This document shows positions 3,671 through 18,695 of a stretch of 64,000 nucleotides of DNA, one piece after another. The stretch's first letter is position 1, and every line of letters starts with the position of its first letter. The notes under the pieces are model-generated. The model worked only from the letters and a program-made list of their open reading frames with translations, had not been told where the DNA came from and did no database searches. The stretch spans positions 1 to 64,000 of the forward strand of contig NZ_JADMJL010000016.1 of the NCBI RefSeq assembly GCF_018780585.1, written 5' to 3'. Made by a program: the position numbers and the translations under genes. The DNA is from Methyloversatilis discipulorum (lineage in GTDB: Bacteria > Pseudomonadota > Gammaproteobacteria > Burkholderiales > Rhodocyclaceae).

Positions 3671-6082
3671 ATGTCCAGCCTCCAAACCGTTCCCGAGCAA
3701 CTCGAACTGCCGCTTCTGCCATTGCGGGACGTCGTCGTCTTCCCGCACATGGTGATCCCGCTGTTCGTCGGTCGCCCGAAATCCATCAAGGCGCTCGAGT
3801 CGGCCATGGAAGCCGGCAAGAGCATTCTGCTGGTGGCACAGAAGTCTGCCGCCAAGGATGAGCCGAATCCCGAAGATCTCTACCGTATTGGCTGCGTTGC
3901 CAACATCCTGCAGATGCTCAAGCTGCCGGACGGCACCGTAAAGGTGCTGGTCGAAGGCACGCAGCGTGCAACGGTCGAGGACATCGTCGATATCAAGACG
4001 CTGTTCATGGCCCAGGTCACCACGGTGCCCGCCGTCGAGCAGACCTCGCACGAAATTGAGGCGATGCGTCGTGCGCTGATCAGCCAGTTCGATCAGTACG
4101 TCAAGCTCAACAAGAAGATTCCGCCGGAAATCCTGACCTCGCTGTCCAGCATCGAGGAAGCGGGCCGTCTGGCGGACACGGTGGCTGCGCACCTGCCGCT
4201 CAAGCTCGAGCAGAAGCAGGACATCCTTGAGCTGTTCGGTACGGCCGAGCGCATCGAGCGCCTGCTGTCGCAACTGGAAACCGAACTCGACATCCTGCAG
4301 GTCGAAAAGCGCATCCGCGGCCGCGTGAAGCGGCAGATGGAGAAGAGCCAGCGCGAGTACTACCTGAACGAGCAGGTCAAGGCCATCCAGAAGGAACTGG
4401 GCGAGGGCGAGGACGGCGCCGATCTCGAGGAGATCGAGAAGAAGATCAAGGCCGCTGGCATGACCAAGGAAGCCATCGCCAAGGCGCAGTCCGAGCTGAA
4501 GAAGCTCAAGCTGATGTCGCCGATGTCGGCCGAAGCGACCGTTGTGCGCAATTTCATCGAGACGCTGGTCGGCCTGCCGTGGCGCAAGAAATCGCGCATT
4601 TCGAAGGATCTGGCCGAAGCCGAGAAGATTCTCGACAAGGACCACTACGGTCTGGAGAAGGTGAAGGAGCGCATTCTCGAATATCTGGCGGTGCAGCAGC
4701 GCGTCGACAAGCTGAAGGCGCCCATCCTGTGCCTGGTCGGCCCTCCGGGTGTCGGCAAGACCTCGCTCGGCCAGTCGATCGCCAAGGCGACCAACCGCAA
4801 GTTCGTGCGGATGGCGCTGGGCGGTGTGCGCGACGAAGCTGAAATCCGTGGCCACCGTCGCACCTACATCGGTTCGATGCCGGGCAAGATCCTGCAGAAC
4901 ATGACCAAGGTCGCGGTGAAGAACCCGCTCTTCCTGCTCGACGAGGTCGACAAGATGGGGCAGGACTTCCGCGGCGACCCGTCGTCGGCACTGCTCGAAG
5001 TGCTCGATCCGGAGCAGAACTCGACTTTCGTCGACCACTACGTCGAGGTCGAGTACGACCTGTCGGACGTGATGTTCGTCGCGACGGCGAACTCGCTGAA
5101 CATTCCGGCGCCGCTTCTCGACCGGATGGAAGTGATCCGGCTGTCGGGCTACACCGAAGAAGAGAAGGTCAACATCTGCCAGCGCTATCTCGTGCCGAAG
5201 CAGATGAAGAACAACGGCCTGAAGAAGGAAGAGCTGTCGGTCACCGAAGACGCGCTGCGCGATATCGTGCGCTACTACACCCGCGAGGCCGGCGTGCGAG
5301 CGCTCGAACGTGAAGTGTCCAAGATCTGCCGCAAGGTGGTGAAGGGCCTGGTGATGCGCAAGCGTTCATCCAAGGTGATCGTCAACGCGAAGAACCTTGA
5401 CAAGTTCCTCGGCGTGCGTCGCTACACCTTCGGCATCGCCGAGAAGGACAATCAGGTCGGACAGGTGACCGGTCTGGCCTGGACCGAAGTCGGCGGCGAA
5501 CTGCTGACCATCGAAGTCGCGACCATGCCCGGCAAGGGCGCGGTGCAGCGTACCGGCTCGCTCGGCGACGTGATGAAGGAATCGGTCGAGGCTGCGCGCT
5601 CGGTGGTGCGCTCGCGCGCACGTCGCCTGGGCATCAAGGACGAGGTGTTCGAGAAGTCCGATCTGCACGTGCACTTCCCGGAAGGCGCGACGCCCAAGGA
5701 CGGTCCGTCGGCGGGCATCGCGATCACCACCGCTCTGGTGTCTGCGCTGACCGGCATTCCGGTCCGTGCGGACGTCGCGATGACCGGCGAGATCACGCTG
5801 CGTGGCGAGGTGCTGGGCATTGGTGGCTTGAAGGAGAAGCTGCTCGCGGCGGTACGCGGCGGCATCCATACGGCGCTGATTCCGCAGGAGAACGTGAAGG
5901 ACCTCGCGGACATGCCTGACACGCTGAAGAACTCGATCGAGATCGTGGCGGTGAAGTGGATCGACGACGTGCTCGAGCGCGCGCTCGAGCGCAAGCCCGA
6001 TCCACTGCCCGAGGCCGATCCGGCAACCGTGGTCGCCAAGGTTGAGGAACCCGCAGCGGCCGGCTCGGTCGTTACGCACTGA
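3671..6082 (+). CDS. lon: Lon, ATP-dependent serine protease
   Basis: The 803-residue product is a full-length LonA protease that degrades misfolded and regulatory proteins in the cytoplasm. The N-terminal substrate domain starts LPLLPLRDVVVFPHMVIPLF. A coiled-coil region (about 190-300), an AAA+ module with Walker A GPPGVGKT and a C-terminal peptidase domain follow. The catalytic Ser lies in PKDGPSAG and the Lys in GGLKEKLLAAVRGG. AAGGA sits 6 bases before the ATG. The gene closes the tig-clpP-clpX-lon block and probably has its own sigma32-like promoter at 3614-3639. A hairpin terminator follows at 6095. Confidence 0.98.
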   Translation: MSSLQTVPEQLELPLLPLRDVVVFPHMVIPLFVGRPKSIKALESAMEAGKSILLVAQKSAAKDEPNPEDLYRIGCVANILQMLKLPDGTVKVLVEGTQRATVEDIVDIKTLFMAQVTTVPAVEQTSHEIEAMRRALISQFDQYVKLNKKIPPEILTSLSSIEEAGRLADTVAAHLPLKLEQKQDILELFGTAERIERLLSQLETELDILQVEKRIRGRVKRQMEKSQREYYLNEQVKAIQKELGEGEDGADLEEIEKKIKAAGMTKEAIAKAQSELKKLKLMSPMSAEATVVRNFIETLVGLPWRKKSRISKDLAEAEKILDKDHYGLEKVKERILEYLAVQQRVDKLKAPILCLVGPPGVGKTSLGQSIAKATNRKFVRMALGGVRDEAEIRGHRRTYIGSMPGKILQNMTKVAVKNPLFLLDEVDKMGQDFRGDPSSALLEVLDPEQNSTFVDHYVEVEYDLSDVMFVATANSLNIPAPLLDRMEVIRLSGYTEEEKVNICQRYLVPKQMKNNGLKKEELSVTEDALRDIVRYYTREAGVRALEREVSKICRKVVKGLVMRKRSSKVIVNAKNLDKFLGVRRYTFGIAEKDNQVGQVTGLAWTEVGGELLTIEVATMPGKGAVQRTGSLGDVMKESVEAARSVVRSRARRLGIKDEVFEKSDLHVHFPEGATPKDGPSAGIAITTALVSALTGIPVRADVAMTGEITLRGEVLGIGGLKEKLLAAVRGGIHTALIPQENVKDLADMPDTLKNSIEIVAVKWIDDVLERALERKPDPLPEADPATVVAKVEEPAAAGSVVTH

Positions 6083-6094
6083 TCGCTGCCTGAC

Positions 6095-6143
6095 AACAGC
6101 CCGCGAACCGCCTCTTGTGAGGTATTATCGCGGGCTGTTTTTT
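6095..6143 (+). terminator. Rho-independent terminator of lon
   Basis: An 11-bp perfect inverted repeat (6095-6105 with 6129-6139) with a smaller CCTC/GAGG hairpin nested in its loop runs into six or more T residues. It lies just after the lon stop and before tRNA-Val. Confidence 0.75.
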
Positions 6144-6162
6144 GCAGCGACCTTCAGGCAGC

Positions 6163-6238
6163 GGGTGCTTAGCTCAGTTGGTAGAGCGTCGCCCTTACAA
6201 GGCGAATGTCGGCGGTTCGAGCCCGTCAGCACCCACCA
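6163..6238 (+). tRNA. tRNA-Val, anticodon TAC
   Basis: A 76-base cloverleaf: acceptor stem GGGTGCT pairs with AGCACCC, the D arm holds AGCTCAGTTGG, the anticodon loop CTTACAA gives TAC (valine), the T arm has GGTTCGAGCC, and CCA is encoded. It is 27 bases upstream of tRNA-Asp, and the two are probably cotranscribed. Confidence 0.97.
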
Positions 6239-6265
6239 GTCCCTGCCTCGTTGCCCCGCAAAACT

Positions 6266-6342
6266 GGAGTGGTAGTTCAGTTGGTTAGAATACCGGCCTG
6301 TCACGCCGGGGGTCGCGGGTTCGAGTCCCGTCCACTCCGCCA
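6266..6342 (+). tRNA. tRNA-Asp, anticodon GTC
   Basis: A 77-base cloverleaf with acceptor stem GGAGTGG/CCACTCC, anticodon loop CTGTCAC (GTC, aspartate), T loop GGTTCGAGTCC, discriminator G and encoded CCA. A terminator hairpin begins 12 bases later, ending the two-tRNA transcript. Confidence 0.97.
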
Positions 6343-6354
6343 AAACTGACAGCG

Positions 6355-6377
6355 GGCGAACGGTTGTTCGCCTTTTT
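6355..6377 (+). terminator. Rho-independent terminator of the tRNA-Val/tRNA-Asp transcript
   Basis: GGCGAAC at 6355-6361 pairs with GTTCGCC at 6366-6372 across a GGTT loop and is followed by five T residues. Confidence 0.75.
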
Positions 6378-6420
6378 CATTTCCTGCGCCCGAAAAGCCC
6401 GGGCTCCGCGAAAGGTTCCT

Positions 6421-8325
6421 ATGTTCGATGCAGTCCGCAACAACAAGCGCGTGGTCCAGGCCGTCCTGTTGCTGATGGTGTTGCCCTTCGCCTTCTTCGG
6501 CGTCGAGTCCTACATGAACAACGATGCGGTGCGCGAGGACGCGGCGGTCGTTGGCAAGCTGAAGATCGCTCCGGAAGAGTTCGAACAGGCGCTGCGTGAT
6601 CAGACCGATCGCCTGCGCGACATGGCGGGCGAACAGTTCGACCCGAAAATGATGGAAACGCCGCAGGCGCGTGCGCAGACGCTCGACGGCCTGGTGAGCC
6701 AGCGCATCCTGCTGCAGGAGGCGCAGCGTCAGCACATGACGGTTTCCGATGCGCGCATGAGCCAGATCATCGCCGGCGTTCCCGGTTTCCAGATCGACGG
6801 CAAGTTTTCCGAAGCACGCTTCGACCAGGTTGCCCAGACGCAGGGCTACAGCCGCGACGGCCTGCTCGCCCGCATCCGTCAGGATCTGGTGATCCGCCAG
6901 CTGTACACCGGTGTCGCCGGCAGTTCCTTCGTGCCGGCCTCGCTTGCCCGTCGCTGGGCACAGATGCAGCAAGAAGAGCGCGAGGTCAGCGAAGCCATCA
7001 TCACCCCGTTCGAGTTCATCGAGCAGTTCAAGATCACGCCGGAGCAGGTGCGCAAGTACTACGACGACAACCAGAAGGAGTTCTCGGTCCCGGAGCAGGT
7101 CAAGGTCGAGTATCTCGTGCTCAGCGAAGCCGCGCTTGCGGCGGCACAGGAGGTCAGCGAGGAAGAGGTGCGCAAGACCTTCGAAGCCAACCAGTCGCGC
7201 TACATGCAGGGCGAGGAACGCAAGGCGCGTCATATCCTGCTGACCGTGGACGCGGGCGCCAGCGCCGAAGATCGCAAGGCGGTCAAGGCCAAGGCCGAGG
7301 CCCTGCAGAAGACGGTCAAGGCCGATCCGTCGAAATTCGCCGAACTGGCCAAGGCCAACTCCGAAGATCCGGGCTCGAAGGACAATGGCGGCGATCTGGG
7401 CTTCTTCGGCCGCGGCACCATGGTGAAGCCGTTCGAGGAGGCCGCTTTCGCGTTGAAGAAGGGCGAAGTCAGCGGTGTCGTCGAGACCGATTTCGGTTAC
7501 CACATCATCCAGGTCGAGGACGTTCGCGGCGGTCAGGGCAAAACGCTCGAGCAGGCACGCGCGGAGATTACCGACGATCTGAAGAAGCAGGCGGCCCGTC
7601 GGCGCTTTGCCGAACTGGCGGAAACCTTCAGCAATACCGTCTATGAGCAGGCCGACAGTCTTGCACCGGCTGCCGAAAAGCTTGGTCTGCAGGTGAAGAC
7701 CAGCCCGCTGATCCCCAAGGGGCTGCTGATGCCGGCGCCGTTCGACAACGAGAAGCTGCGTGAGGCGATCTTTTCGGAAGATGCGGTCAAGAACCGTCGC
7801 AACACGCAGGCGATCGAGACCGCGTCGAACACCCTGGTGTCGGCGCGCGTGATCGAACAGCTGCCGCCGTCGATCAAACCCTTCGAAACAGTGCAGGCCG
7901 ACATCGAGAAGAAGCTGGGCTTCGAAGCGGGCCGCAAGATGGCGCTGGAGCGGGGCGAAGCGTCGCTCGCCAAGCTGCGTGCCGGCGAGGAGGCGCCGCT
8001 GAACTGGTCGCCGCCGCAGGACATCTCGCGCGCCCAGGCGCAGGGTCCGGCCGCCACTATGGTGCGCGCCATCTTCAATGCACCGGCCAACAAGCTGCCA
8101 GCCTATCTGGGCTTCCCGATGGATAACGGTGGTTTTGCGATCTTCCGCATCACCGCCGTCAAGCAGCCGAAGGAAGCGCTCGATCCCGCGCGCGTCGAAG
8201 CGATCAAGGCGCAACTCGAACAGACCGTGTCGCAGGACGATTTCGCCGCCTATCTTGCCTCGCTGCGCAAGGAGTATCCGGTGACCGTCAATCGCAAACT
8301 GATCGACAACGCCAAGCAGCCCTGA
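6421..8325 (+). CDS. ppiD: PpiD-like periplasmic folding chaperone with PpiC-type rotamase domain
   Basis: The 634-residue product is an inner-membrane-anchored periplasmic chaperone that assists newly exported proteins at the Sec translocon. One transmembrane helix (about residues 15-33, [17 protein letters not shown]) is followed by a SurA-N-like helical region. A parvulin domain (about 270-390) carries the family motifs [17 protein letters not shown] and FGYHIIQV. The start ATG at 6421 gives the short cytoplasmic N-terminus typical of PpiD; an upstream in-frame extension begins inside the tRNA terminator and was rejected. In enterobacteria ppiD follows lon-hupB; here two tRNA genes occupy the hupB position. 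Confidence 0.92.
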
Positions 8326-11030: not shown

Positions 11031-12098
11031 ATGAACCGCATCTTCATCAGCTACCGCAGCGCCGATGGGGCCAAGGACGCCAGCCGGCTGGCCGACGATC
11101 TCGGCCGCGTTTTCGGCGCCGACCATGTGTTCCTCGACCGGCAGGATCTGCGCGGCGGCAGCAGCTGGCGGCAGGAGATCGAGCGTGCTATCGGCCACCG
11201 GCCCATCGTGCTGCTGCTGGTCACGCCCGGTTTCGCAGGCGCGCGTCACGCCGACGGCCGGCTGCGCATCGATGACGCCGACGACCCGGTGCGCATGGAA
11301 ATCCAGTCGGCCATCGACGCCGGCGCAGTGCTGATGCCACTGCGCGTCGATGGCACGCCGATGCCGCCGGCCAGCAGCCTGCCCGAACCCCTGCGCCTCA
11401 TCACCGAGCGTCACGCGCTGCCGCTGCGCACCGACGACTGGACCCGCCTCGATCTGCCGCGCGTCGTCGCCGACATCGAGCGGCTGGGCGTGCCGCGCAG
11501 CGACGTCACCGCGGCGGAGAGCGTGCGGCCGGTGCGCAGCAATGCACGTCGCTGGGCGCTTGCCGCCGCGGGCGTGCTGGCGATCACCGCACTCGTTCGC
11601 TTCGCCGTCGAGGACGACGCCGAACTGCAGCTGCCGCCCACCGCGGCCGGCGTCGGCACCACCACGTCGTTGCCGCCGGCGGACGAAACGCAGCCGGTGG
11701 CCGCACTCGCCGCCGATCGGCCGTCGCTCGAAGGCCGCTGGCTGCTCACCACGCAGAACGGCGAGCGCATTCCGCTGCACCTGCGACACCGTGACGATCG
11801 GTTGTCGCTGCGTTCCGAGCCGGTGCGCGTCGACAACGATCCGGCCTGGCGCGACTACATCGCGTCGCTTGCCGCGATGGAGGGACCGCCGCTCACCCAT
11901 ATCGTCTTTACCGCCGAGGGCGCCGTATTCGGCGACCTCGCCGATCTGGCCGTGCGTGTCGTCAGCGCCGACGGCAGTTTTCTGGTCGACAGCGGCAATC
12001 TCACGCTGCGCATCGGCCCGGAGCGCCGCGTGCTGGCCGGCAAGGTCGAACTGAACAGTGGCGAACAGAATACGGTCGTGCTGTCGCGCCGACCCTGA
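11031..12098 (+). CDS. TIR-domain protein with a membrane anchor and C-terminal sensor-like region
   Basis: The 355-residue protein opens with a TIR domain (about residues 1-150): box 1 RIFISYRS, the FLDRQDLRGGSSW region and a helix with E90 in VRMEIQSAI, which lines up with the catalytic glutamate of NAD-cleaving TIRs such as SARM1. A single hydrophobic helix (about 174-191, RWALAAAGVLAITALV) follows, then a proline-rich linker and an unrecognised C-terminal domain (about 230-355). If the helix is a membrane anchor, the TIR domain would be cytoplasmic and the C-terminal region periplasmic. It ends 16 bases before the CHAT gene. NAD hydrolysis or signalling-nucleotide synthesis is inference from the family. 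Confidence 0.85.
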   Translation: MNRIFISYRSADGAKDASRLADDLGRVFGADHVFLDRQDLRGGSSWRQEIERAIGHRPIVLLLVTPGFAGARHADGRLRIDDADDPVRMEIQSAIDAGAVLMPLRVDGTPMPPASSLPEPLRLITERHALPLRTDDWTRLDLPRVVADIERLGVPRSDVTAAESVRPVRSNARRWALAAAGVLAITALVRFAVEDDAELQLPPTAAGVGTTTSLPPADETQPVAALAADRPSLEGRWLLTTQNGERIPLHLRHRDDRLSLRSEPVRVDNDPAWRDYIASLAAMEGPPLTHIVFTAEGAVFGDLADLAVRVVSADGSFLVDSGNLTLRIGPERRVLAGKVELNSGEQNTVVLSRRP

Positions 12099-12114
12099 AC
12101 CGAGGAGACGGAAC

Positions 12115-15100
12115 ATGAGTGCAGCCCGATACCGCATACGCGGCACCGTCAGCGACGCGGCCACGCTGGACGCCGGCGCCGGTGTCGCGGTGCTGCACGG
12201 CCGCCGGCTGATCCCCGGCCGCGCGCGCGACGGTGTGACCGGCGAACTGGAGGTGGCTGCCGACGAGGTCGTGCGCATCGAACTCGACAACGGCTTCGTG
12301 CTGTGGAGCCGCACCGACGACCTGGTGCGCGAGCACGGCCGTCGTTCGGTGTCGCGTGATGGCGACAGCGCCTGGGAATTTGACGCGCTCGACACCGCCG
12401 CAGCGGCGCCGACCTCGCGCGGTGTGCTCGGGCTGGGCATTCGCGTGCTCGACTTCTTCGGCATCGATCTGAAGAAGAAGTCGGCCGCCGCGCTCGGCAA
12501 GTGGTTCGAGGAGAAGCGGCTTGGCCGCCCGCCTGGCCTGCACCTTTGTGCGCTCGACGCCTTTGCGCTGACGCCGCTGGCCGCGCGCGCGGCGATCGCT
12601 GCCGACGCCGGACCGCTGCTGGTTTTCCTTCATGGCACCGGCTCGAGCTGCGAAGGCAGCTTCGGCGGACTGTGGGATGCCGCCAATCGCGAGGGCGCCG
12701 CGCTGCGCCGCCGGCTCGGTGCGCGCTACGGCGAGCGGGTGTTCGCGCTCGAACACCGTTCGCTGACCGAGAGCCCGATCAGCAATGCGCTGGCGCTGGC
12801 CAAGCGCCTGCCCAAGGGGGCCGAGCTGCATCTGGTCAGTCATTCGCGCGGCGGCATGGTGGGTGAACTGATGTGCCTGGGCGAATGTCGCGGGCTGGAC
12901 GCGGTCGTCGGCCGGCTCGATGAACTGTTCGCCGCCGACCGCACGCTGGCCGAGCAGATCGGCCTCGGCGCGCTCGACGATGCCGCCGAGGCGGCGCGCC
13001 ACGCCGCCTATCAGGCCGATCGTGCGGATCTGGCGGCGCTGCTGGCGGAGCTGAAAGCCAAGCAGTTCCGCGTCAGCCGCTTCGTCCGCGTCGCCTGCCC
13101 GGCGCGCGGTACCACGCTGGCGTCGGGCCGCCTCGACCGCTGGCTGTCGGTGCTCGACTTCGTGTCCGGCAAGGCGCTGTTCGGCGACGCCGTCGACTTC
13201 CTGCTCGCCGTGGTGAAGGAACGCACGGATCCGCGCACGTTGCCCGGTGCCGAGGCGATGATGCCCGGCTCGGCGCTGACCCGGCTGCTCAATCACGCAG
13301 AACTCGAGACCGCTGCCGACCTCACGGTGATCGCCGGCGACGTCGAGGGCGAATCGCTGTGGCAGAAGATCAAGCTGCTTGCCACCGACTGGTTCTACGG
13401 CGCCGACCACGATCTGGTGGTGAACACCGGATCGATGAGCGGCGGGCTGCGCCGTCCGGCGAACGGCGCGCGCTTCGGTCGCGACGCGGGCGCTCAGGTC
13501 AATCATTTCCGCTACTTCGTCAACGAGAAGAGCGTGCGCTGGCTGGCCGCCGGCCTGCTGCGCGTCGAGGGTGACGATGCCGGTTTCCAGCCGATCGCCG
13601 AGGCGCCGCACGATCCGCCGCGCTGGCGCAGCGCGCTGGCGCGCAGCCAGAGTGCCGCCGAACCGCGGCCGCTGGCGGTGGTGTTGCCGGGCACCATGGG
13701 CAGCGAGCTGAGCGTCGACGGCGAACGCGTCTGGCTGGACTATCTCGCGCTGTTCAAGGGCGGACTCAAGCGCCTGCACATGGCGGCGGCGCAGGTCGAG
13801 CCGGGCGGACTGGTCGATCAGTTCTACGGGCCGCTGCTCGAATTCCTTGCGCGCAGTCACCGCGTCGAATTCTTCGCCTACGACTGGCGCCAGTCGGTGC
13901 GCGCTGCCGCAGCGCGGCTGGCCGAGCGGCTGGAGGCGGTGGTCGCGCGCGCCGAGGCCGAGCAGCAACCGGTGCATATCGTCGCCCACTCGATGGGCGG
14001 ACTGGTGGTGCGCGCGCTGATGAGCGACGGCGGTCGCGGTGCGGCCGTGTGGGCGCGCATCACCCGGCTGCCGGGCAGCCGATTCCTGATGCTCGGTACA
14101 CCGAACGCCGGCTCGCACGAGGCGGTGCGCTGGCTCACCGGCCACAATCCGACGCAGGCGCGTCTTGCGCTGCTCGACTTCACGCAGAGCACCACCGACA
14201 TCATCGATCTGGTGCGCACTTATCCCGGCCTGCTCGAACTGCTGCCCTTTGCCGACAGCGATCCGGACTTCGCCGACGTGGCGCGCTGGGAGGCGCTGCG
14301 CAAGCAGCTCGGCGCGCGCTGGAAGCCGGCCGACGCGAAAACACTGAAGTCCGCGCGCGACACCTGGACGCAGCTGAAGGCGATCGCGGTCGATACGCGC
14401 GTTGTCCGCTACGTGGCCGGTTGCCAGCCGGCCACCGTCATCGACTACCGCGTCGACGATGTCGATGACCCCTGGCCGCTTGGCCGCAAGCGCATCGACT
14501 TCGTTGCGACCGCGCGTGGCGATGGCACGGTGAGCTGGGCCTCCGGCGCGCTGCCCGGCGTGCCGATGTGGTACGCCGAAGACACCGCGCACGACTTCCT
14601 GTGCGCGCAGACGCGCGCCTTCGACGGCTACCTCGACATCCTGACCACCGGCAGCACGACCCGGCTGCCGTCGGCGCCGCCGGCCGGCGCGCGCACGGGC
14701 GGCACCGGCGAGGAGCTGTTCGTGCTGAAGCCGCTGCCGCCGGCCGACGGCATTCCGCAGGCGGCCGACATCGCCAGCTTCGGCTTCGGCGGCGGGACGC
14801 CGCCGCGTCGGGTCGAGCGCAGCACGCGCACGCCGATCACCGTGCGCGTGCGCCACTGCGAACTGAGCTATGCGCGCCACCCAGTGATGGTCGGACACTA
14901 TGCCGGCGATACCATCGTCAGTGCCGAGGCGAGCATGGACCGGCGCATGCACGGTGCGCTGTCGCGCAGCCTGCAGCTGGGGCGCTATCCGGGTGCGGCA
15001 GGCACTCACGGCATCTTCATTCCGCGCGAAATGCACCAGCACCCGCAGGGCGCCATCGTGGTCGGCCTGGGCGAGGTAGGTGAGCTGAGCCCGGGGCTGC

Positions 15101-17529
15101 TGCAGGACGGCGTGCGCCGCGCGCTGCTCGATCTTGCACTGCAGGTGATCGAGTGGCCGGACGAGCGCTTCGGCCCGGCCGACGCGACGCGCAGCATCTG
15201 CGTGTCCACGCTGCTGGTCGGCACCGGTGCCGGCGGCATGCGCACGCGCGATTCGGTCGAGTCCATCCTGCGCGGCACCGGCGACGCCCAGCGCGCGCTG
15301 CGCGAGGGGGCGCTCGCCGGTCGCGTCGTCATCGGCGAGGTCGAATTCATTGAGCTGTACGAGGACATCGCCATCCAGGCCGCTGGCGCATTGCGCGAGG
15401 TGGTCGATGGCCCGCTGGCCGGCGACTTCGTATGGCCGGAACAGGTGCTCGGCCAGGGGCACGGTGGGCGTCGTCGCGTCTGCTTCGACGAGGACGCGAG
15501 CTGGTGGCACCGCCTGGAGATCTCCCACGACGCGCGTCGCGACGAACTGCGCTTCATCGCGCTGACCGACCGCGCGCGTGCCGAAATCAGCCTGGTCGGC
15601 GGCCAGCTGCAGCAGGTCGATGCCTTCGTCAGCCAGGCCTGCCGCTCCTGCGCCGCCGATGCCGACACGTCGCGCACGTTGTTCGAAATGTTGCTGCCGC
15701 ACCGGATGAAGCAGTTGGCCCCGGAGCGGCGCAGCGTGGTGCTGCTGGTCGACGAGGTGTCCGGCCGTTTCCCGTGGGAACTGCTCGAGGATCGTTGGCA
15801 GGCCGGTCAGCGTCCGCCGGCCGTGGCCTCCGGCATGCTGCGCCAGCTGCGCACGTCGCAGTATCGCGAGCGACCGCTGGGTGCGACACGCGCCAGCGCA
15901 CTGGTGATCGGCGATCCGGCGCCGCTGGGCCGCGGGTTTTCCGCACTGCCGGATGCCGCCGCCGAGGCGCGTGCGGTGGCCGGCGTACTGTCGTCCGGCG
16001 GTTGCGCGGTGACCGAGCTGATCCACGCCGAAGGTCGCGCCATCATGGCGGCGCTGCACCAGGACGCATGGCGCATCCTGCATCTGGCCGGCCACGGCGT
16101 TCACGAGTACGTGGTGCCCACCACCACGCCAGCGGACGGCGGCGGCGGCACGCGCAAGGTGTCCGGCATGGTGATCGGCGACGGCTGGTTTCTGACGCCC
16201 GGCGACGTCGAGCAGATGCGCTACGTGCCGGAACTGGTGTTCATCAACTGCTGCCATCTCGGCAATACCGGCGGCGACGATGCCGCCGGCTCCCCCGATC
16301 TCAATCGACTGGCCGCGAACCTGGCGACGCAGTTCATCCGCATGGGCGTGCGCGCCGTCGTCGCCGCAGGCTGGGCGGTCGATGACGCCGCCGCGCGCTG
16401 TTTCGCCGAAACCCTGTACGGCAGCCTGCTTGATGGCCGTGGCTTCGGCGACGCGGTGCGCATCGCGCGCGAGGCGACCTGGACCCGTCACCCGAAGGTG
16501 AATACCTGGGGCGCCTACCAGTGTTACGGCGATCCGGATTACCGCCTCGACCCGACCGGCCCGGCGCGCCGCGACAGCGCGCCGCCGCCCTTCACTACAC
16601 CGTCCGAACTGGTGGTGCAGATCGACAACCGCAGCAGCGCGCTGATGAGCGGCGGCGCTGCGGCGAACGGTGGCGATGCCGATCCGTCGGCCTGGCTCGA
16701 CAGCTACACCGCGCGCGTGCCGGCCGCCGCCCGTGCCGCCTGGCTGGCGCGCGCCGACGTCGCCGCGGCGATCGGTCTCTGTTTCGGCGAGTCCGGCCAT
16801 TACGCGCTGGCGGCGCAGTGGCTGGACCGCGCGCGCGAGGCTGACGACGGTGATTGCCCGCTGCGCGTGCTCGAGCAGTCGGCCAATTTCAGGGTTCGGG
16901 CGGCCGACGACGAGTGGGCGCTGATGCGCGAGAAGCGCGGTGACGTAACCGACCTGGTTGCTGGCATCCGGCGCGCCATCGCCGACCTCGAACTGCTGAC
17001 GCCATCGGCCAAGCGTTGCGCCTTGCTCGGCAGTGCGCACAAGCGGCTGGCCTGGATGCTAGATGGCGACGCGCGGCTGGCGGCGCTGGCCGACATGGCG
17101 AAGCACTACGGGCGGGCATTCGAGCTGGCCGCGCGCAACGAGGGGCAGACCGTGGACAGCTATGCCTTCGTCAATCTGTGGACGGCGCGACTGCTGCATG
17201 CGCGGCTGAGCGGTGCGGTACTGCCGGCGGATGACGCGCGCACCGTCCGCGACGGATGCGAGCGCGTGCAGCGGGATGCCGCCGCCCACCCCCATCCGGA
17301 CTTCTGGAGTACGGCCGTGGTCGGCGACTGCGAACTGCTGTGCGCCTTGCTCGACGGGCGACTGGCTGCCGCCGAACAGGCGGGCATCGTCGGCGCCTAT
17401 CGCGCCGCCTTCGCCCGCGGCGGCAGCGCACGAGAACGCGCGTCGGTGCTCGATCAGGTCGATTTCCTGATCGATCTGGGCGTGCTGCGCAGCGGCCTGA
17501 AAAAGGTGCGTGAGGCGCTCGGCGCCTGA
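12115..17529 (+). CDS. Giant CHAT protease protein with two alpha/beta-hydrolase domains
   Basis: This 1804-residue protein is a multi-enzyme fusion. A small N-terminal region (1-120) precedes a first alpha/beta hydrolase with an oxyanion-type HGTGSS (173-178) and nucleophile elbow SHSRGG (Ser244). A second, LCAT/lipase-like hydrolase follows, with LPGTMGSELS (from 524), AHSMGG (Ser626) and a GDGTVSW acid motif before a candidate His. A middle region (about 900-1150) is unassigned. The CHAT caspase-like peptidase has His1327 in HLAGHG and Cys1380 in FINCCHLGN. The last 350 residues are helical and repeat-like. An AGGAGA ribosome site precedes the ATG at 12115. CHAT proteins act in bacterial defence and programmed death; the role here is inferred. 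Confidence 0.85.
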   Translation: MSAARYRIRGTVSDAATLDAGAGVAVLHGRRLIPGRARDGVTGELEVAADEVVRIELDNGFVLWSRTDDLVREHGRRSVSRDGDSAWEFDALDTAAAAPTSRGVLGLGIRVLDFFGIDLKKKSAAALGKWFEEKRLGRPPGLHLCALDAFALTPLAARAAIAADAGPLLVFLHGTGSSCEGSFGGLWDAANREGAALRRRLGARYGERVFALEHRSLTESPISNALALAKRLPKGAELHLVSHSRGGMVGELMCLGECRGLDAVVGRLDELFAADRTLAEQIGLGALDDAAEAARHAAYQADRADLAALLAELKAKQFRVSRFVRVACPARGTTLASGRLDRWLSVLDFVSGKALFGDAVDFLLAVVKERTDPRTLPGAEAMMPGSALTRLLNHAELETAADLTVIAGDVEGESLWQKIKLLATDWFYGADHDLVVNTGSMSGGLRRPANGARFGRDAGAQVNHFRYFVNEKSVRWLAAGLLRVEGDDAGFQPIAEAPHDPPRWRSALARSQSAAEPRPLAVVLPGTMGSELSVDGERVWLDYLALFKGGLKRLHMAAAQVEPGGLVDQFYGPLLEFLARSHRVEFFAYDWRQSVRAAAARLAERLEAVVARAEAEQQPVHIVAHSMGGLVVRALMSDGGRGAAVWARITRLPGSRFLMLGTPNAGSHEAVRWLTGHNPTQARLALLDFTQSTTDIIDLVRTYPGLLELLPFADSDPDFADVARWEALRKQLGARWKPADAKTLKSARDTWTQLKAIAVDTRVVRYVAGCQPATVIDYRVDDVDDPWPLGRKRIDFVATARGDGTVSWASGALPGVPMWYAEDTAHDFLCAQTRAFDGYLDILTTGSTTRLPSAPPAGARTGGTGEELFVLKPLPPADGIPQAADIASFGFGGGTPPRRVERSTRTPITVRVRHCELSYARHPVMVGHYAGDTIVSAEASMDRRMHGALSRSLQLGRYPGAAGTHGIFIPREMHQHPQGAIVVGLGEVGELSPGLLQDGVRRALLDLALQVIEWPDERFGPADATRSICVSTLLVGTGAGGMRTRDSVESILRGTGDAQRALREGALAGRVVIGEVEFIELYEDIAIQAAGALREVVDGPLAGDFVWPEQVLGQGHGGRRRVCFDEDASWWHRLEISHDARRDELRFIALTDRARAEISLVGGQLQQVDAFVSQACRSCAADADTSRTLFEMLLPHRMKQLAPERRSVVLLVDEVSGRFPWELLEDRWQAGQRPPAVASGMLRQLRTSQYRERPLGATRASALVIGDPAPLGRGFSALPDAAAEARAVAGVLSSGGCAVTELIHAEGRAIMAALHQDAWRILHLAGHGVHEYVVPTTTPADGGGGTRKVSGMVIGDGWFLTPGDVEQMRYVPELVFINCCHLGNTGGDDAAGSPDLNRLAANLATQFIRMGVRAVVAAGWAVDDAAARCFAETLYGSLLDGRGFGDAVRIAREATWTRHPKVNTWGAYQCYGDPDYRLDPTGPARRDSAPPPFTTPSELVVQIDNRSSALMSGGAAANGGDADPSAWLDSYTARVPAAARAAWLARADVAAAIGLCFGESGHYALAAQWLDRAREADDGDCPLRVLEQSANFRVRAADDEWALMREKRGDVTDLVAGIRRAIADLELLTPSAKRCALLGSAHKRLAWMLDGDARLAALADMAKHYGRAFELAARNEGQTVDSYAFVNLWTARLLHARLSGAVLPADDARTVRDGCERVQRDAAAHPHPDFWSTAVVGDCELLCALLDGRLAAAEQAGIVGAYRAAFARGGSARERASVLDQVDFLIDLGVLRSGLKKVREALGA

Positions 17530-17549
17530 CCGGGACTCAAGGAGGACAC

Positions 17550-18695
17550 ATGGCCAGCGGACTGAAGTACGCGGACGACTATCTGATCGGTGGCCCGGCG
17601 CGCGCCCGCGTCACGCCCAACTTCCAGTTGTCGGAATACGCGCGCGCCGACGGCACGGTGCGCGTGCATCGCGAACTGCTGGCGGCCGTGCAGCGGGTAC
17701 GCGACGAGCTCGGGGCCGGTGTCAGCATTGCCGGCGTTGCGCCCCGCGGTGGTCTGGGCGCAGGGATCGAAGGGCTTTTCGTCTGGCTGAAGGCGGCCGA
17801 CCCGGTGGCGCTGGCCGACGCCGCCCGCCGTGTCGCGCGCGACGGCTGGCTGGCGCGGGTCGAGCTGCGCGGCGACCTGATCTATGTCGAGATGCACGAC
17901 CCGTCGAAGTTGCCTGCGCTGGCCGCCGAGCGTGCGCTCGATCTGGCCATCGCGGTGACGGCCGCGTTCGAAACCCGTGGCGATCCCTATCTGCAGGTGA
18001 CCGGCAATTTCGACGGCGCCGGTCTGTCCTTCGGGCCTCTGCAGGTCAATCTGGGCACCGGCACGCTGCAGGCGCTGTTCCGCCGTTTCGCCGCGCGCGA
18101 CGAGGCCGCGCTGCGCGCCTGTTTCGGCGCGCTGTGGGACGAATGGCAGCGCATGCTGCGGTTGCCGTCGCGCGCCGCCCAGGTGCGCTGGGCCGACGCG
18201 CTGAGCCGTGGCCCGCGCAAGGCCGGTTTCGATCCGGCGTGGACGCGGGCGCTGCAGGCGGTTGGCCGACAGCCCGTTTTCCGCGCCGAATGGCTGCACT
18301 ACGCCTACGATACCTACGGCCGAAAACTGGTCGTCGCGCTGGCCTGGCTGAAGGGCGTGCGGCCGATACCGATACGCAATTTCCGCTGCCTGGCCGCGCT
18401 GTACGACCTCTGTGTGCAGCAGGGCAGCCTGGACAAGGCGCACGCCGCCATCCGCCGGCGCATCGAGCGGGAGAACCCGCAGGACGAGTTCGCGCTGACC
18501 CGGATCGCGGTCGAGGAGCGGGGCCGGGCCGCCAATGCGCAGTGGCGCGCCGACTGCATCAGTCGCCGGTTGTGCATCCTCGAGCGCGAGCCGGTCAGGG
18601 TGATCGAATCCGGCCAGAGCGCGCAGCGCGACAATCCGCAGCTCCACCTGCTGCGCAACGCGCCGGTCCATCAGATGGAGCGCTGGCTCGCCTGA
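17550..18695 (+). CDS. M15A-like and lysozyme-like two-domain protein
   Basis: The 381-residue product follows the CHAT gene by 20 bases with an AAGGAGG ribosome site. Residues about 20-120 (FQLSEYARADGTVRVH onward) resemble the peptidase M15A/D,D-carboxypeptidase fold, but the usual zinc-ligand motif is not visible, so the domain may be a degenerate binding module. Residues about 138-175 contain AFETRGDPY and GNFDGAGLSFGPLQVN, a pattern seen in lysozyme/chitosanase-like proteins, with the Glu of FETR as candidate catalytic residue. No signal peptide is seen. The C-terminal third is unassigned. Peptidoglycan as target is inference. Confidence 0.65.
   Translation: MASGLKYADDYLIGGPARARVTPNFQLSEYARADGTVRVHRELLAAVQRVRDELGAGVSIAGVAPRGGLGAGIEGLFVWLKAADPVALADAARRVARDGWLARVELRGDLIYVEMHDPSKLPALAAERALDLAIAVTAAFETRGDPYLQVTGNFDGAGLSFGPLQVNLGTGTLQALFRRFAARDEAALRACFGALWDEWQRMLRLPSRAAQVRWADALSRGPRKAGFDPAWTRALQAVGRQPVFRAEWLHYAYDTYGRKLVVALAWLKGVRPIPIRNFRCLAALYDLCVQQGSLDKAHAAIRRRIERENPQDEFALTRIAVEERGRAANAQWRADCISRRLCILEREPVRVIESGQSAQRDNPQLHLLRNAPVHQMERWLA

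Follow-up and report, generated by a model that had tools for sequence, protein, structure and literature searches.

A candidate modular conflict cassette of Methyloversatilis discipulorum combining a TIR gene, a giant hydrolase-CHAT protein and a putative wall-lytic protein

The stretch of DNA analysed here, called the window, comprises the first 64,000 nucleotides of contig NZ_JADMJL010000016.1 of Methyloversatilis discipulorum (assembly GCF_018780585.1). It carries three consecutive genes on the same strand: a TIR-domain gene, a gene for a giant protein with hydrolase and CHAT protease domains (hereafter G2) and a gene for a putative wall-lytic protein (hereafter G3; Table 1). The initial annotation had proposed that these genes, at 11031-18695, form an undescribed defence or death cassette. 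Open reading frame (ORF) calling confirmed their extent and strand as well as the intergenic gaps of 16 and 20 bases, which supports an operon-like layout. The start of G2 was taken as the ATG at 12115; the mechanical ORF begins at a GTG at 12058. A promoter and terminator scan of the locus gave signals no better than chance. The three genes are flanked by gltX and a cpsB-like gene, both named by eye.

The TIR call of the initial annotation was borne out by a Pfam match to TIR_2 (residues 4-113, E = 2.7e-13). All 13 aligned rows, the reference included, retain the catalytic glutamate E90, many of these rows being close relatives. Hydropathy analysis shows a single hydrophobic stretch starting around residue 175. 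The charges are basic before this span and acidic after it, suggesting that the TIR side is cytoplasmic. The C-terminal domain is also carried by a second TIR type of the genus, together with the same transmembrane (TM) segment. Outside the genus, the TIR protein of locus L088 has a C-terminal domain of the window type (E = 3.3e-9; the profile was built from 12 genus rows, L088 not being among them), and its presence there rules out that the domain is restricted to the genus. The L088 TIR gene, which also encodes a TM segment, lies at 5714-6763 on the minus strand, near genes for CHAT, Amidase_2, C14 and astacin-like peptidase proteins.

G2 matches DUF7379 (3.5e-30), CHAT (PF12770; 6.8e-30), TPR-S (PF20308; 2.3e-10) and LCAT (5.2e-7) in Pfam, in agreement with the two hydrolases and the CHAT protease previously read from the sequence. 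The TPR-S match scores 41.4 bits for a cut-off of 27.6, and TPR-S is also found in the Rhizobium locus L081. In an alignment of 43 rows, reference included and with many close relatives, the residues named beforehand as catalytic are indeed conserved: S244, H1327 and C1380 are each present in 42 of the 42 lettered rows (one gap each), and S626 is kept in 41 of the 43 rows. Thus, G2 has the CHAT fold and the His/Cys dyad that define the CHAT family. An AlphaFold model of the C-terminal half (937 residues; mean predicted local distance difference test score, pLDDT, 76; predicted template-modelling score 0.45) was compared with known structures by Foldseek. The best match was the SAVED-CHAT filament protease 8tl0 (E 5.8e-6), followed by macro domains (macroH2A1.1 and the ADP-ribose-bound macro domain 2 of PARP9) and by leucine-aminopeptidases. 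Because of a weak Pfam match to M17_N at residues 926-998, the macro-like fold is placed between the hydrolases and the CHAT domain. The macro-like and TPR-S domains, like the partner swapping described below, are absent from the initial annotation. A phage origin of G2 was also considered and found unsupported, as no relative turned up when IMG/VR was scanned with two conserved peptides.

For G3, Pfam gave nothing above cut-off, and comparison with PDB sequences gave no noteworthy match. Residues 120-348, which contain the conserved E141 and D155, are common to proteins fused to PG_binding_1, and parts of this region also occur in a protein of the Thermus phage MN1 and in one IMG/VR contig. 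The earlier lysozyme-like assignment of this domain, seen in PG_binding_1 and phage proteins and matching no named Pfam family, is putative. In a fold search, the third-ranked match was a Hedgehog-type domain (E 0.12), which is compatible with an M15-like N-terminus and proves nothing.

Table 1. Features of the TIR-G2-G3 locus (positions in the window; aa, amino acids)
Feature	Position	Strand	Basis
TIR-TM-C-terminal-domain protein, 355 aa	11031..12098	+	ORF; TIR_2 E=2.7e-13, aa 4-113; E90 13/13
Predicted membrane span of the TIR protein, ~aa 175-193	11553..11609	+	Hydropathy
C-terminal domain of the TIR protein, ~aa 233-353, without Pfam match	11727..12089	+	Pfam, alignment, profile search
Shine-Dalgarno-like GAGGAG, 5' of G2	12102..12107	+	
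G2, hydrolase-hydrolase-macro-like-CHAT-TPR-S protein, 1804 aa	12115..17529	+	ORF, Pfam, alignment, Foldseek
G2 alpha/beta hydrolase 1 (DUF7379; nucleophile S244)	12619..13524	+	Pfam, alignment; right boundary approximate
G2 alpha/beta hydrolase 2 (LCAT/PGAP1-like; nucleophile S626)	13657..14664	+	Pfam, alignment; boundaries approximate
G2 macro-domain-like / leucine-aminopeptidase-N-like fold, ~aa 905-1110	14827..15444	+	Foldseek (no ranges given), weak PF02789; boundaries approximate
G2 CHAT protease domain (H1327, C1380)	15667..16533	+	Pfam, alignment, Foldseek
G2 TPR-S domain, aa 1563-1690	16801..17184	+	Pfam
Shine-Dalgarno-like AGGAGG, 5' of G3	17540..17545	+	
G3, putative wall-lytic protein, 381 aa, without hydrophobic N-terminus	17550..18695	+	ORF, alignment, hydropathy
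G3 lysozyme-like domain, ~aa 120-348 (conserved E141, D155)	17907..18593	+	Alignment, profile matches; "lysozyme-like" is a by-eye label

The gltX site was followed across the genus by placing gltX, the TIR ortholog and the cpsB-like gene in 13 genomes. The TIR gene lies near gltX in all 13, and G2 follows it there in six (G000, G001, G004, G005, G007 and G010). In G009, TIR and G3 stand side by side with G2 missing between them (locus L197, G009:C86, 3428-5740). The TIR gene alone was found at the site in six genomes, as mapped in G002, G011 and G012 and as judged by positions in G003, G006 and G008; loci L148, L149 and L151 likewise have a TIR gene without G2. The seven genomes that lack G2 at gltX have another G2 operon elsewhere, which in six of them is arranged as TIRb-G2-M15_3-SLOG and in G002 as C14-G2 with a CHAP protein encoded on the other strand. 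The retention of the TIR gene at gltX without G2 implies that its product works in trans or has a job of its own.

In a wider survey, genes were called around 119 CHAT loci, of which 79 were non-redundant after removal of 40 repeats, and the three-gene neighbourhoods were examined. A gene for a TIR protein, a C14 caspase or a SLOG-like protein lies near G2/CHAT at 53 of the 79 loci (TIR 21, C14 30, SLOG-like 17). A wall hydrolase is found at 36 loci, 34 of which also have a TIR, C14 or SLOG-like partner; as genus-mates and near relatives cannot be taken as independent, 36/79 is not a count of events. The SLOG-like proteins, labelled by eye, form a 187-aa family with a GxxGGD motif and without Pfam match (L009 7741-8304, L034 7314-7877 and others). 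The exact order of the window, TIR, G2, G3, occurs at six loci, all within the genus, and in L031 and L045 G3 is accompanied by a C14 caspase. TIR and a wall hydrolase are present together at 15 of the 79 loci. Twelve of these belong to the genus; the others, L081 (GH108), L127 (GH108) and L088 (Amidase_2), are far from the genus and have unrelated wall hydrolases. In L088, the genes are arranged in the order C14, Amidase_2, G2, TIR. L081, on plasmid pRL31b3 of Rhizobium leguminosarum, is the most telling independent case of the arrangement: it consists of a TIR-nSTAND1-WD40 gene, a gene for a CHAT and TPR-S protein without lipases, a GH108 muramidase gene, a gene for an unknown protein and a second TIR-nSTAND1-WD40 gene. 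TIR also lies near CHAT in L133, L139, L085 and L086.

A tree of the CHAT domain with 75 rows (quick method, LG+G4, with some long branches; four of the 79 loci were left out as partial or odd) indicates how often these partners were exchanged. Among loci having one, the type of wall hydrolase changes at least seven times, and the TIR/C14 partner at least nine times. These partner swaps, together with a TIR gene that outlasts G2 at its site, rule out a fixed three-gene system. The initial annotation had treated the trio as a unit. This part was not sustained, since G2 stands beside TIR in six of the 13 genus genomes and relatives often have a C14 or SLOG-like neighbour instead. It had also suggested looking for the trio in other genomes, and had taken separation of the genes in nearly all relatives as what would speak against a cassette. 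Outside the genus the exact trio is indeed broken up; the wider pattern of TIR, CHAT and wall hydrolase recurs.

The surprising part of the finding is the recurrent slot for endolysin-like enzymes from several families. The 37 wall-hydrolase genes, one locus (L031) carrying both M15_3 and G3, comprise M15_3 (21), G3 (8), M15_4 (4), GH108 (2), Amidase_2 (1) and CHAP (1), that is, five Pfam families, examples of which were confirmed by Pfam, and the G3 type. Nine examples from the five Pfam families were tested, and all match endolysin or amidase (lysis) families of PHROG. In the M15_3 partners, H104, D111 and H153 are retained (reference numbering of the alignment), which we take to be the zinc ligands of M15 peptidases. 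Ordinary autolysins are exported, and classical endolysins are not. A hydrophobic N-terminus is absent from all 37 wall hydrolases: their highest 15-residue mean hydropathy is 1.23, for values of 1.42, 2.04 and 2.35 in three exported controls chosen by eye, the weakest of which is not far above 1.23. Wall hydrolases account for 37 of 425 genes near G2/CHAT vs none of 374 far genes, a control that is biased because the profiles were seeded on near genes. Less biased is a search for two Pfam families in 49 of the 53 G2/CHAT-matching genomes, the other four having partial G2/CHAT matches only. There, 10 of 26 PF08291 matches adjoin a CHAT gene, as do four of 17 PF13539 matches (16 over cut-off), a fifth being at a contig end. 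Because a single clade of the genus accounts for six of the ten, these figures represent only about four and three independent lineages, respectively. For genomes of ~4 Mb, well under one adjacency would be expected from position alone.

A search with the G2 protein gave matches at E <= 0.001 in 21 of 61 genomes, its own included, three of which (G019, G025 and G034) show weak CHAT-only similarity. Each of the 13 genus genomes, that of the window included, has one G2-type gene; in G002 it was matched as two pieces in one frame. At higher ranks, matches were found in 25 of 399 genomes of the order, 14 of 369 of the class and 4 of 398 of the phylum, each count including the window genome, with profiles and cut-offs that differ between ranks. 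The family is thus sporadic outside the genus. It is also found on plasmids, with eight plasmid records having a G2 relative, five of which were inspected.

Several known systems share elements with this locus. In the available text of PMC12847820 (citing Rousset, 2025), type IV Thoeris associates a TIR protein with a caspase-like protease and is recognised by the production of N7-cADPR, which activates the protease. As far as that text goes, the window resembles it in having genes for a TIR protein and a caspase-superfamily protease in one operon, and protease activation by a signal derived from nicotinamide adenine dinucleotide (NAD) would be the expected logic. The TIR domain with its catalytic glutamate is present. 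For the adjacent caspase-like effector, no curated NCBIfam model scored above cut-off and PADLOC gave weak TIR and CHAT matches only, with no check made that these libraries include a model of that effector; CHAT is caspase-like in the broad sense. Unlike in the type IV systems described there, CHAT is here part of a giant protein that also has two hydrolases, a macro-like domain and TPR-S, and a wall hydrolase is added. In type II Thoeris, a TIR protein is described as acting with a TM-macro effector; that layout is not seen here, and the fold by which G2 resembles a macro domain in Foldseek is also that of the leucine-aminopeptidase N-domain. The type III-B CRISPR SAVED-CHAT and type III-E TPR-CHAT (Craspase) proteases share the CHAT fold with G2, as the match to 8tl0 illustrates. 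No SAVED domain fused to CHAT was detected: the PADLOC SAVED_CHAT match covers only residues 1399-1501 (E = 0.01), and Pfam gave no SAVED match at E <= 1. In contrast to these proteases, G2 has macro-like and TPR-S domains and is associated with TIR/SLOG and endolysin-type partners. SAVED-CHAT reportedly initiates a cascade leading to a caspase, which the CHAT genes beside C14 caspase genes in G2 relatives resemble. Because neither the curated caspase-like effector of type IV Thoeris nor the SAVED fusion of SAVED-CHAT was found, the window cassette is regarded as a new form among the TIR/caspase-CHAT conflict systems.

The TPR-S match of G2 places it among TPR-S sensor proteins. In the systems of this kind attributed to Burroughs and Aravind in 2020, TPR-S is said to be a predicted sensor of NAD-derived signals. 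Looser likenesses are found in predicted conflict systems. The available text on Thiohalocapsa (PMC10907252) presents a single protein with caspase-like CHAT and TIR domains and a predicted defence role. These proteins differ in being sensors that diversity-generating retroelements target for hypermutation in MoxR/VMAP-type loci, and that text mentions no lipase-CHAT protein or wall hydrolase. The NTP-dependent conflict systems predicted by Kaur et al. (2020; PMC7159879) include, in the text available, a caspase with an alpha/beta hydrolase, TIR/SLOG signal domains and, in one system, lysozyme- or papain-like wall-attacking effectors. Their focus is on MoxR-vWA/VMAP and EAD-coupled systems, and TPR-S is mentioned zero times in that text. 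The anti-phage system Borvo is listed with a CHAT domain in the available part of PMC10952713, a likeness at the level of the listed domain. As to phage endolysins, the M15, GH108, Amidase_2 and CHAP partners that were tested fall into lysis families of PHROG as described above; the slot genes differ from them in adjoining G2 in bacterial chromosomes or plasmids. No description of the arrangement of G2 with TIR or caspase and endolysin was found in the accessible portions of open-licence PubMed Central text, most subscription literature lying outside that scope.

Taken together, these observations lead us to a proposal that we hold to be evenly poised between right and wrong: the three genes would be one assortment of a modular conflict or programmed-death system centred on G2. 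With the same even balance, it can be proposed that this CHAT-centred module attacks the cell envelope, with an interchangeable endolysin slot, with TIR or caspase as the trigger or first protease, and with hydrolases acting on lipid. We infer all of the biochemistry of the module, what triggers it and what advantage it brings as follows. The membrane-anchored TIR enzyme, replaced in relatives by a C14 caspase or a SLOG-like protein, would sense infection or a disturbance of the envelope. TIR would then make an ADP-ribose-type signal or, alternatively, the caspase would cleave G2. The macro-like and TPR-S domains may read the signal, leading to activation of the CHAT protease, which would cut G2 itself or its partners and free the two alpha/beta hydrolases onto membrane lipid. 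G3, which has no evident signal peptide, as in a canonical phage endolysin, would cross the damaged membrane and cut the wall, so that the cell would lyse ahead of the invader completing its cycle. A bolder and rather doubtful extension is that phage-type endolysins (M15, GH108, amidase, CHAP and G3-type) were repeatedly recruited into a TIR/caspase-triggered, CHAT-controlled death module in which fused lipases take the place of a holin. Such a lytic immune executioner would turn phage lysis chemistry on infection, loosely in parallel to pyroptosis. If true, the proposal would add a lytic, wall-breaking arm to bacterial TIR and caspase signalling and would make domesticated endolysins interchangeable immune effectors. 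It makes testable the ideas that one protease hub licenses both lipid and wall attack and that a CHAT-fused macro-like domain reads a TIR product.

A number of observations weigh against a CHAT-centred conflict module. The TIR gene stands beside gltX without G2 in seven of the 13 genus genomes, and neither kind of partner is found at 24 of the 79 loci, just six of which have short flanks. The neighbourhood of the window locus is housekeeping-like rather than a defence island, and a single G2 per genus genome is unusual for a mobile defence gene. PADLOC and NCBIfam named no system for the three window proteins. The macro-like fold, shared with leucine-aminopeptidases, is conserved also where no TIR gene is nearby, and it need not read a TIR product. 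As for the slot, the M15_4 and CHAP neighbours number five, and four of these are encoded on the opposite strand. The muramidase label of G3 expresses distant similarity only, its predicted model is poor (pLDDT 64), its fold search gave no match at E <= 0.001, and its PHROG match is to a family without named function.

In an alternative reading, only G2 and G3 would pair functionally, the TIR gene being an old gltX-linked gene of the genus that lies upstream by chance and serves a separate purpose, such as NAD depletion or envelope sensing. This is unlikely in our judgement, even though the constancy of TIR at gltX, compared with the occasional presence of G2, and the loci where TIR is present without G2 (G009, which retains G3 at the site, and L148, L149 and L151), speak for it. 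The second G2 operon type of the genus has its own TIR gene, with the same TM segment and C-terminal domain; all 13 TIR-bearing genus genomes have G2 somewhere; TIR lies near CHAT in six loci (L081, L127, L133, L139, L085 and L086); and the window-type C-terminal domain on the TIR protein beside the L088 CHAT gene further lowers the probability that the association is fortuitous.

A similarly low probability is given to an envelope-stress or housekeeping module, concerned with lipid turnover, wall remodelling or regulated autolysis rather than immunity. Lipase and wall-hydrolase parts, one G2 per genus genome, a housekeeping-like context and the genes for a periplasmic binding protein (Ensifer plasmid) and an SBP_bac_3 protein (Paracoccus plasmid) before G2 would all suit such a role. 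It accounts less well for a gene that is sporadic outside the genus, is carried by plasmids and, inside a single genus, comes in versions that occupy different sites, or for TIR, nSTAND1 and C14 partners and endolysin-type wall hydrolases without hydrophobic N-termini. Finally, the lipase and wall hydrolases might be delivered to rivals as interbacterial toxins of the type VI effector kind. G2 shows weak similarity to Tle3 (Pfam, E = 0.063) and, in a profile comparison, weakly matches 4r1d (E = 1.7e-4), presumably a Tle4 structure, and a by-eye Hcp-like gene lies three genes from G2 in L135 and L136. However, the lipases belong to an 1800-aa protein that also contains CHAT and TPR-S, and the wall hydrolases have no evident export signal, and we consider this explanation very improbable.

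Further observations concern the surroundings of G2 relatives. In L078, on a plasmid of Azotobacter chroococcum, the G2-type gene adjoins type I restriction-modification genes, a recombinase gene and transposase genes. In L135 and L136, the Hcp-like gene (type VI secretion) is upstream of G2. Proteins of 1.1 kilo-amino acids, one of them the SBP_bac_3 protein, are encoded upstream of G2 on the Paracoccus plasmids (L079 and L080), and an nSTAND1 protein together with the periplasmic binding protein upstream of G2 on the Ensifer plasmid (L077); these may be periplasmic sensors. Lastly, L023, from Azotobacter, has two G2-type genes about 2.1 kb apart, with 54% and 34% to that of the window.

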